Assembly: GCF_000218625.1 (NCBI RefSeq)
Contig: NC_015672.1
Coordinates: 620,001-684,000, forward strand
Origin: Flexistipes sinusarabici DSM 4947
Lineage (GTDB): Bacteria > Chrysiogenota > Deferribacteres > Deferribacterales > Flexistipitaceae
Direction: 5' to 3'
Length of the DNA: 64,000 nucleotides
Part shown: positions 7,819 through 63,644 of the stretch, one piece after another
How the letters are laid out: the number at the start of each line of letters is the position of its first letter
Position numbering within the stretch: the stretch's first letter is position 1
The notes under the pieces: generated by a model
What the model saw: only the letters and a program-made list of their open reading frames with translations
Told to the model about the DNA's origin: nothing
The model's database searches: none
Translations under genes and position numbers: made by a program

Positions 7819-8005
7819 TTGAAGTTCTGCACTTGTACATATTACACGTCTTTGTTCATCCTGTTAAATATCAGCTTCGCTGATTGCCTGTGGCATTTAA
7901 CAGGGCAGGGAGTGATAACGACGAAGCAATCTCTCTTTTTATATTATTTTGGGATTGTCACTACCGAGCACATAAACTCTTATGTGCTCGGTACCTCTGG
8001 GCGGA
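7819..8005 (-). repeat. Structured intergenic repeat, copy 1 (diverged, with insertion)
   Basis: This is one of four related elements (others at 57377, 61586 and 63434). It begins with a decayed terminal repeat TTGAAGTTCTGCACTT and shares the core GTGATAACGACGAAGCAATCTC. A perfect 13-bp hairpin lies at 7963-7992, stem ACCGAGCACATAA. A nested inverted repeat is inserted at 7860-7904: CCTGTTAAAT pairs with ATTTAACAGG around an inner ATCAGC/GCTGAT stem. The far end is too decayed to place exactly. It is oriented opposite to the copies at 57377 and 63434. Confidence 0.6.
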
Positions 8006-57376: not shown

Positions 57377-57532
57377 TTCAAGTTTCGCACTTCGTTTTGT
57401 CATTGCGAAACCGAGCACTTAAGAATTTAAGTGCTCGGTTGTGGCAATCTCAAAACAAGAAAAGTAGAGAGATTGCTTCGTCGTTTTCACTCCTCGCAAA
57501 GACTTGAATACAGTGTAAGTGCGAAACTTGAG
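57377..57532 (+). repeat. Structured intergenic repeat, copy 2
   Basis: Near-perfect terminal inverted repeats TTCAAGTTTCGCACTT and AAGTGCGAAACTTGAG bound a 156-bp element. The central hairpin is ACCGAGCACTTAA, GAAT, TTAAGTGCTCGGT (57410-57439). The core GAGATTGCTTCGTCGTTTTC is shared with the other copies. No clear target duplication. It lies in the 330-base gap between the phosphoribosyltransferase and gpgP genes. Confidence 0.8.
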
Positions 57533-57626
57533 TTGAGCGTTTTATTGCAAAATAATCCCGAATATTTTTAAATTGAATATATCTCTTAAGTATTGAATTT
57601 AATGCGGCAAAAGTTAATATAGTGAT

Positions 57627-61445: not shown

Positions 61446-61585
61446 ATTAGGTTTAGGTTAAGGAAGTTGATCAGGTTGAGATAGCAGTTGCCTTTACTGG
61501 ACGTGCTACCACTAATAGCCATAATACCCGTAATACCCCAATTACCTTCACTCAATGCATCGCGCATAAAAATATAATGTATTAA

Positions 61586-61755
61586 TTCAAGTTTCGCACT
61601 TGCACTGTTTTCACGTCTTTGCGAGGAGTGAAAACGACGAATTTTCTTGTTTTGAGATTGCCACAACCCTGTTTCCACAGGGTTTCGCAAGGATGCCTAT
61701 GGCATATATATTCGCTAAAAGCGAATGCTAGACAAAACGAAGTGCGAAACTTGAA
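61586..61755 (-). repeat. Structured intergenic repeat, copy 3
   Basis: The terminal repeats TTCAAGTTTCGCACTT and AAGTGCGAAACTTGAA are perfect inverted copies. The central hairpin differs from the others: AACCCTGT, TTCC, ACAGGGTT (61665-61684), followed by two extra stems (ATGCC/GGCAT at 61693-61705 and TTCGCT/AGCGAA at 61711-61725). Flanks GTATTAA (61579-61585) and ATATTAA (61756-61762) match at six of seven positions, consistent with a 7-bp target duplication. Confidence 0.85.
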
Positions 61756-61913
61756 ATATTAAGTTTAAGGAGGTTTAATAGAAAAATATTTTATTTTCAG
61801 GTTTTTTTATAAAAACATTGTTGGATGTTATTTTGAATTGTCTTTATTATAAATGAGATAAATTGAAAAATATATATAATATGTTTATTGTTTATGTTAA
61901 ATTTAATTGTTTG

Positions 61914-61941
61914 TTGACAGTATAAACAAAGGTATTATAAG
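61914..61941 (+). promoter_or_regulatory. Strong promoter of a candidate small RNA
   Basis: TTGACA (61914-61919), a 16-base spacer and TATAAG (61936-61941). The predicted start is near 61948. Confidence 0.65.
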
Positions 61942-61947
61942 TAAACT

Positions 61948-62025
61948 TACGAAATATGGCATCCTCCCAATAGCAATAGATTAACTCCCCCAAAAAGGAG
62001 ACCTTTTAAGGTCTCCTTTTTTATT
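61948..62025 (+). ncRNA. Candidate C-rich small RNA with intrinsic terminator
   Basis: A near-consensus promoter is followed about 45 bases later by a perfect terminator: AAAAAGGAGACCTT pairs with AAGGTCTCCTTTTT (61992-62021), and the T-run continues as TTTTTTATTT. The stretch between has no reading frame of note but holds ATCCTCCCAA and AACTCCCCC, unpaired C-rich segments able to pair with Shine-Dalgarno GGAGG sequences. The transcript would be about 78 nt. It could be a free regulatory RNA or an attenuated leader for the PhoH gene, which starts 74 bases after the terminator with its own AGGAGG. Confidence 0.5.
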
Positions 62026-62098
62026 TCCAGAACAACTTTAAAATTTTCTTCACACTTTTTTAAGAATCTGCTATCAATGGTTTAATTCAGGAGGAAGT

Positions 62099-63400
62099 AT
62101 GTCTGTAAACTATGTGTTAGATACCAATGTTCTTTTATATGATCCAATGGCAGTTTACGGCTTTAACGGTGATGTGGTTAATATTCCGATAACAGTTATT
62201 GAAGAGATAGATATATTTAAAAAGAACATGGACCAAACGGGGTATAATGCCCGGTATATAAGCAGATTTTTAGACGAATTAAGGCTAAAGGGTGATTTAA
62301 GCAGGGGAGTTAAAATAGAAAATGATACTGTTATCAGGGTGAACATATGTGAAGGCGAGGCTTCTCAAAAGATTTCTGAGGATCTTATTAAAGACAAAAC
62401 TGACAATTTAATACTTTCTGTTGCTAAATGGCTTCAGGAAAACGAATCTCTTGATGTTATTTTTGTGACGAAAGATGCAAATCTGCGTATTAAGTCAGAT
62501 GTTCTCGGCATAAAAACCACTGATTACGAGAAAGATAAAGTAGATACGGAATCTTACCTGGAGGGTACCAGAAAAGTTTATGTTAGTGATGAGATTATCG
62601 ACCGGATTTATAAAGAAAAGAAATATAATTTTGATGAGCAGTTTGTTCCTAATGAGTATTTCTGCGTTTTAAGTAAGACTGACGAGAAAAAATCTGTATT
62701 GATGAGATACAGCGAAAAACATTCTTCATCAGTCATTATTGATACTTATGAAAGCGGTGTTTGGGGTATTTTTGCCAGAAATATGGAACAGCGCTTTGCT
62801 TATGATGCTTTACTTAACGACGAAATAAAACTGGTTTCACTTCTTGGTATAGCCGGGACAGGCAAGACACTTCTCGCTATTGCCGCAGGTCTTTTGAAAG
62901 TAGTGGATAATCAAGCATACAGAAAACTTCTTGTATCAAGACCTATATTTCCTATGGGTAAAGATCTGGGTTATCTGCCGGGGGAAATAAAAGAAAAAAT
63001 GACACCCTGGATGCAGCCCGTTTACGATAATTTGAGCCTGATCCTGGACAGCAGAGATACAAATGAAACTTATGGAACGCTTTTTGATCAGAATATGATT
63101 GAAATTGAAGCTCTGACATATATTAGAGGCAGAAGTATCCCTTATCAGTTTTTTATTGTGGATGAGGCACAAAACCTTACTCCTCACGAGATTAAAACAA
63201 TTTTGACAAGGGCCGGGGAAGGTACGAAGATAGTGCTGACAGGGGATCCTAATCAAATTGATAATCCTTATATTGATTATCATACCAACGGTCTGACTTA
63301 TGTTATGGACAGATTTTATGGAGATCCCATAGCTGCTTCCGTAGCACTGCAAAAGGGTGAGCGCTCAGAGTTGGCTACAAAGGCAGCCCAAAAGCTTTAA
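62099..63400 (+). CDS. PIN-PhoH fusion protein (PhoH2/YlaK type)
   Basis: An N-terminal PIN nuclease domain (YVLDTNVLLYDP, later acidic residues in TDNLILSVA and FVTKDANLRIK) is fused to a PhoH ATPase domain. The latter has Walker A GIAGTGKTLLA, FPMGKDLGYLPGEI, IRGRSIPYQFFIVDEAQN and LTGDPNQID. Such proteins act as sequence-specific RNA helicase-nucleases in the mycobacterial PhoH2 case. AGGAGG precedes ATG 62099. Length is 433 aa. No small partner gene lies upstream, only the candidate RNA. Confidence 0.93.
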   Translation: MSVNYVLDTNVLLYDPMAVYGFNGDVVNIPITVIEEIDIFKKNMDQTGYNARYISRFLDELRLKGDLSRGVKIENDTVIRVNICEGEASQKISEDLIKDKTDNLILSVAKWLQENESLDVIFVTKDANLRIKSDVLGIKTTDYEKDKVDTESYLEGTRKVYVSDEIIDRIYKEKKYNFDEQFVPNEYFCVLSKTDEKKSVLMRYSEKHSSSVIIDTYESGVWGIFARNMEQRFAYDALLNDEIKLVSLLGIAGTGKTLLAIAAGLLKVVDNQAYRKLLVSRPIFPMGKDLGYLPGEIKEKMTPWMQPVYDNLSLILDSRDTNETYGTLFDQNMIEIEALTYIRGRSIPYQFFIVDEAQNLTPHEIKTILTRAGEGTKIVLTGDPNQIDNPYIDYHTNGLTYVMDRFYGDPIAASVALQKGERSELATKAAQKL

Positions 63401-63433
63401 AAATTACGGAAGGTCAGACTATATAGTTATTAA

Positions 63434-63585
63434 CTCAAGTTTTGCACTTGGTTTAGTCATTGCGGCCACGCACTTGACGCCTTAAGTGGGCGGGAGGCAA
63501 TTTCAAAAAATAAAAAAAAGTGAGATTGCTTTGCCGTTATCACTCCCTGCAAAAACTTGTAATAGGTACAAGTGCTAAATTTGGG
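63434..63585 (+). repeat. Structured intergenic repeat, copy 4, with perfect 7-bp target duplication
   Basis: Terminal repeats CTCAAGTTTTGCACTTGG and ACAAGTGCTAAATTTGGG match at 14 of 18 positions when inverted. TTATTAA flanks the element exactly on both sides (63427-63433 and 63586-63592). The central stem here is CGCACTT/AAGTGGGCG, partly decayed. Length is 152 bp. Confidence 0.85.
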
Positions 63586-63644
63586 TTATTAAAACATTGA
63601 GAAAAATGTAAGACTATATAGTTTATATTTATCCTGGAGATGGT

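Follow-up and report, generated by a model that had tools for sequence, protein, structure and literature searches.

The 64,000 nucleotides of the Flexistipes sinusarabici DSM 4947 chromosome analysed here (the window) carry on their forward strand a candidate small RNA (sRNA) gene followed by a gene encoding a PIN-PhoH protein. The putative sRNA promoter consists of a -35 box TTGACA (61914-61919) and a -10 box TATAAG (61936-61941), the 16-base spacer being the top-scoring placement in all seven members of the family described below. From the position of the -10 box, transcription is predicted to start at about 61948 and to end at 62022, giving an RNA of about 75 nt. It contains a C-rich core of 30-32 bases, CATCCTCCCAATAGYAATAGATTAACTCCCCC (61960-61991), in which lie C-rich box 1, CATCCTCCC (61960-61968), with the motif CCTCCC at 61963-61968, then AATAGCAATAGA (61969-61980), whose four A-R-N triplets could form a site for the distal face of Hfq, and C-rich box 2, CTCCCCC (61985-61991). 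Boxes 1 and 2 are the presumed seeds 1 and 2. An intrinsic terminator, AAAAAGGAGACCT-TTTA-AGGTCTCCTTTTT plus T (61992-62022), follows the core; its hairpin (61992-62021) has a stem of 13 pairs and precedes a T/AT-rich tail.

The downstream neighbour, which lies outside the sRNA (62099-63400, + strand), encodes a PhoH2-like protein with Pfam PIN_4 and PhoH domains, whose NCBIfam PhoH2 score of 288 bits is under the cut-off of 680. Between the sRNA terminator and this gene is a separate promoter-like site, TTCACA-17-TATCAA (62049-62077, + strand), which has a counterpart, TTCACT-17-TATTAT, in the congener G002 and seems to be a promoter of phoH's own. On the other side, upstream of the sRNA promoter, a block AATATGTTTATTGTTT (61878-61893, + strand) forms a 16-base identity run with the congener and is possibly a UP element, an operator or a regulator site; it loosely resembles TTATTTGTTTGC of family f7. 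The sRNA-phoH stretch is also flanked on both sides by copies of an imperfect palindromic repeat of about 160-190 bases, of the AAGTTTCGCACTTG...CAAGTGCGAAACTTG type and MITE- or REP-like, found in the window at 61580-61765, 63425-63600, 57377-57534 and about 7819-7957.

Folding of the RNA from 61948 gave a minimum free energy of -18.6, to be compared with -9.7 +/- 2.6 for shuffled sequences (z -3.4). The centroid fold contains the terminator only and leaves both C-rich motifs unpaired. The initial annotation had placed CCTCCC and CTCCCCC in probably unpaired positions, and the folds agree: CTCCCCC is free and box 1 is essentially single-stranded in the window copy, save for a marginal 3-pair hairpin that takes the last CCC of CCTCCC. 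The C-rich motifs are also unpaired in the predicted folds of the other members, with the exception of family f8, in which a 7-pair hairpin is possible in the body, with ACAUCCUC in its loop; there, box 1 is mostly in the hairpin loop and its last Cs are in the stem. As such a hairpin is absent from the f7 copies and only weakly formed by the window copy, it does not characterise the family as a whole; in f1 and f7, most of the body lacks structure.

It should be stressed that the anatomy of one sequence is insufficient here, since promoter-like sites in this AT-rich region, counted on a single sequence, are at background (11 found for 10.4 expected). Furthermore, a generic promoter and terminator scan does not list the sRNA site, because its -10 rule wants a T at position 6 and because the T tract belongs to the stem. 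It is conservation that appears to raise the promoter and the terminator above chance.

Sixty genomes were searched with the 71-nt body, a gapped pattern, a promoter-plus-core pattern and a sequence model, and the DNA upstream of phoH orthologues was also read for copies of the RNA. All approaches agree on seven carriers, with one copy each, which belong to three families of the order: G000 (the window genome) and its congener G002 in f1, G008, G015 and G021 in f7, and G009 and G016 in f8. The core CATCCTCCCAATAGYAATAGATTAACTCCCCC was not found in the remaining 53 genomes searched; among these, neither family f5 nor genus g2, where further close PhoH orthologues occur, yielded a copy. The sequence model gave E-values from 1.6e-14 to 6.5e-8 for the seven carriers and of 0.018 or worse for all others. 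In its alignment, two bases were filled in the G016 row, for model building only, because MAFFT did not place the two gaps, of one base each, that the f8 copies require. Among the 60 genomes, the promoter-plus-core pattern matched the seven carriers only, while its reversed control matched once. Weaker BLAST or model matches in G011, G045, G051 and others were rejected as chance or coding matches; a match on a viral contig (L264) lies inside a phage gene and is not a family member, and matches on plasmids covered the terminator hairpin alone. A joint loss of phoH and the RNA in the congener G001 was likewise discarded: its contig starts within gmhA, which follows phoH, and this break makes the apparent absence of the RNA uninformative.

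The constraint on these seven loci is unevenly distributed. The core is 100% identical inside each family, whereas the flanks of members of the same family are 64-72% identical over 110 bases upstream and 58-69% over 130 bases downstream (ranges that exclude the close pair G008/G015; shuffled sequences align at about 52%). Between the window genome and its congener, the body is identical over 56 consecutive bases, within an intergenic region that is otherwise 66-69% identical and whose longest other identity run is 16 bases. In all seven members, TTGAC[A/T] is followed after exactly 16 bases by a -10-like hexamer that ends 17-19 bases before CATCCTCCC. Both C-rich boxes are invariant in the seven members and the spacer between them is conserved as A(0-1)ATAGYAATAGA, one base being missing on each side of it in f8. 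The terminator is present in all seven as well, with four different stems (GGAGACCT, AGGAGGCC, AAGGGACC and TGCCCCTT, each with its complement), in each of which all 8 loop-proximal pairs are maintained. Sequence held in a body predicted to be unpaired, and structure alone held in the terminator, is the pattern of a base-pairing or protein-binding sRNA.

These data leave little room for a promoter and a terminator that arose by chance, or for a gene encoding a small peptide, devoid of any RNA function. Such an explanation could draw on the background level of promoter counts and on the presence of a 5-codon ATG frame at 61957-61974 (MASSQ, then stop), which means that the earlier statement that no coding frame lies between promoter and terminator was not literally correct. 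It was correct in substance: this frame has no Shine-Dalgarno sequence, its start codon is missing in three members (f7) and its sequence differs in others, as a one-base difference inside the frame alters what the f8 copies encode. No reading frame is conserved across the seven members, and a leader peptide MASSQ was therefore rejected. Given also that the locus is conserved over three families despite divergent flanks, the chance or peptide explanation is scarcely credible. The initial annotation had proposed a C-rich sRNA of about 75-78 nt and had named conservation as the check; its TTGACA-16-TATAAG promoter and its terminator, whose coordinates direct reading confirms, are indeed both conserved in the seven members. 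From these comparisons, we conclude with high confidence that 61948-62022 is an sRNA gene.

The proximity of phoH raises the question of whether the RNA acts on this gene. The initial annotation had left three options: a leader attenuator, a partner of PhoH or an independent RNA. According to the first, the RNA would be the leader of phoH and premature termination would be regulated by a signal. In G000, G002 and G009, the RNA core and phoH do share a strand, and the core lies upstream at less than 150 bases from the gene. However, a leader would be expected always directly upstream of phoH and in the same direction, whereas in f7 (G008, G015 and G021) the RNA lies beside aromatic amino-acid genes, far from phoH, and the gene that follows it is on the opposite strand in G008 and G015. 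In G016, a 574-codon gene stands between the RNA and phoH. Moreover, the folds show no evident anti-terminator pairing and the conserved promoter-like site of phoH lies past the terminator. The members unlinked to phoH thus contradict this option, which we consider very improbable.

PIN domains act as RNases, and a link with toxin-antitoxin systems has been made for PhoH2 proteins. The RNA could thus be imagined as a partner or an RNA antitoxin of the PIN-PhoH protein, all the more as the two are adjacent in three genomes and a PhoH2-like protein is present in every RNA carrier. This co-occurrence is explained by shared ancestry; furthermore, genus g2 has phoH and lacks the RNA. A partnership is not needed, since one family has lost the linkage and a gene lies between the two in a further genome, and it seems highly improbable. 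The synteny with phoH that had been put forward as a check therefore holds in part, the two genes being adjacent in G000, G002 and G009, unlinked in f7 and separated by a gene in G016. By contrast, the third option, independence, is supported by the loci with different neighbourhoods, as the sRNA promoter and terminator are maintained in all seven settings. Together with the separate promoter-like site of phoH, this indicates that the RNA is its own transcription unit. The RNA thus appears to be INDEPENDENCE from phoH, their adjacency being a shared and breakable neighbourhood and not a functional leader; it would be wrong to see a leader in the PIN-PhoH neighbourhood.

Several features of the RNA and of its carriers point to Hfq. 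A canonical Hfq (Pfam Hfq) is encoded by all seven carriers. That of the window genome is an 80-aa protein whose Sm domain aligns end to end with that of E. coli-type Hfq and which keeps the Q-D-F, YKH and YL-NG-KL positions. Hfq was also found in relatives without the RNA, so the co-occurrence is merely permissive. The members of families f3 and f6 that were examined (e.g., G004, G007 and G014) all lacked an Hfq match, which suggests that Hfq was lost in these lineages. Besides the canonical protein, a 167-aa protein carrying two Hfq domains in one chain is encoded at L265:131-634 (G000:C1:322130-322633, - strand); it displays a strong Hfq match at residues 95-154 and a divergent second match in its N-terminal part, and it occurs in most of the Hfq-bearing genomes of the order. 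On the RNA side, the spacer contains four A-R-N triplets (AATAGYAATAGA) in f1 and f7 and three in f8. A-R-N repeats are the preferred ligand of the Hfq distal face (PMC7237705). The A-R-N spacer and the U tail would make the RNA a class II Hfq sRNA, though the A-R-N motif is short and could arise by chance in an A-rich RNA.

Taken as a whole, the mechanism that we favour, with moderate confidence, is that of an independent, Hfq-dependent and trans-acting sRNA that targets ribosome-binding sites. A sigma-70-type promoter, supported by its sequence and conservation, would drive the sRNA, and an intrinsic terminator with conserved pairing would end it, leaving a U-rich 3' tail. The 5' 40-45 nt contain the two invariant C-rich boxes parted by the AATAGYAATAGA spacer. 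Hfq would hold the RNA through the U tail and the A-R-N spacer and would present one or both boxes to G-rich mRNA sequences, mainly Shine-Dalgarno regions; pairing would then block ribosome entry and expose the target mRNA to decay.

Targets were sought in five to seven genomes by collecting the sites, mostly beside start codons, that match the complement of either box exactly, and the proteins encoded downstream were compared across genomes. This exact-seed search revealed no convincing conserved target. UGGGGGA or UGGGAGGA sites before ATG almost always precede different genes in different genomes, and box 1 sites do not recur on orthologous genes. For box 2, there are one cross-family pair, L208 (G009) and L231 (G008), whose proteins are 81% identical, and two further recurrent pairs inside f8, all of which are weak. 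Candidates from single genomes are purE in the window genome and, in G009, the gene of a small cytochrome-like protein with UGGGAGGAUGUC directly before its AUG (12 complementary bases). The start of a gene at L101:1480-1520 (G009:C1, around 81119-81143) carries both GGGAGGATG and TGGGGGAGTTAAC, the complements of the two boxes, in the reverse of the order that simple antisense pairing would require; it was rejected as an ideal double target, as it lies among phage-like genes and has no counterpart in the site lists of other genomes. In addition, TGGGGGACACCGCCCATATG is found six times in the window genome (G000:C1 31323, 764365, 879414, 1824707, 2028833 and 2425914), probably within a repeated mobile element. 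Lastly, the duplex energy of the RNA with 55 ribosome-binding sites in the window is not better than that of dinucleotide shuffles, 17 of 100 being at least as good; C-richness alone thus explains this affinity. The anti-Shine-Dalgarno role proposed in the initial annotation is therefore plausible and unproven: no conserved target backs it convincingly and local pairing does not exceed that of shuffled C-rich RNA.

This outcome also bears on another type of riboregulator, in which the boxes would be binding sites unrelated to Shine-Dalgarno pairing and the RNA would be a decoy for an RNA-binding protein or would have a G-rich sponge as partner. Besides the lack of a convincing conserved mRNA target in the search, the near invariance of the whole 30-32 nt core, including a spacer that is not C-rich, exceeds the needs of seed pairing with variable mRNAs. 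Known systems provide precedents, as the C-rich loops of PmaR can act away from the ribosome-binding site (PMC6234868) and RosA is a G-rich sponge of C-rich sRNAs (PMC8216469). However, neither a candidate protein nor a G-rich RNA partner was identified, and in f8 the spacing of the boxes differs by two bases, which one rigid binding site on a protein might be unable to accommodate. A decoy or a sponge partner is rather unlikely. It is improbable that the RNA is a lineage-specific global regulator whose whole core is fixed by one dedicated partner, such as the two-domain Hfq, rather than by changing mRNA seeds.

The favoured reading, a base-pairing sRNA, recalls several systems. Like RoxS/RsaE, FsrA and other C-rich sRNAs of Bacillota, among which RoxS and FsrA bind mRNAs through C-rich regions, the RNA is short, has its own promoter and terminator and carries C-rich, here presumed, seeds for G-rich mRNA sites (PMC8216469). 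It differs from RoxS/RsaE and FsrA by its phylum, its core and spacer, its presumed use of Hfq and the lack of an Rfam sequence match. In the same way, the Rhizobiales sRNAs of the SmelA075 and SmelA099 families repeat a conserved C-rich motif in one RNA, their CCUCCUCCC loops being described as anti-Shine-Dalgarno (PMC3927594). Their motif is located in repeated hairpin loops; the present RNA has a body with little structure (in f1 and f7) and two boxes that differ from one another. The promoter and terminator, which precede a helicase-like gene in three genomes, also resemble a 5' leader attenuator, except that other members are unlinked to this gene and no alternative structure was seen. 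ChiX is a class II Hfq sRNA with internal A-R-N repeats and a 3' U-rich tail. The RNA shares these features, which correspond to the two types of Hfq contact, with the class II sRNA MgrR (PMC7237705). Its sequence is unrelated to those of MgrR and ChiX, and its Hfq binding is predicted.

The Rfam search gave no match at the gathering score, permissive matches being far under the cut-offs, and literature searches found no paper describing an sRNA from Deferribacterota. The RNA is thus very probably the founder of a previously undescribed sRNA family of Deferribacterota, of a kind already known, the C-rich base-pairing sRNAs. Being conserved, present in a single copy and equipped with fixed C-rich boxes as presumed seeds, it would offer an entry point to riboregulation in this deep-branching, mostly anaerobic and often thermophilic phylum. 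It could also serve to test whether C-rich sRNAs of the anti-Shine-Dalgarno type have separate origins in Bacillota, alphaproteobacteria and Deferribacterota.
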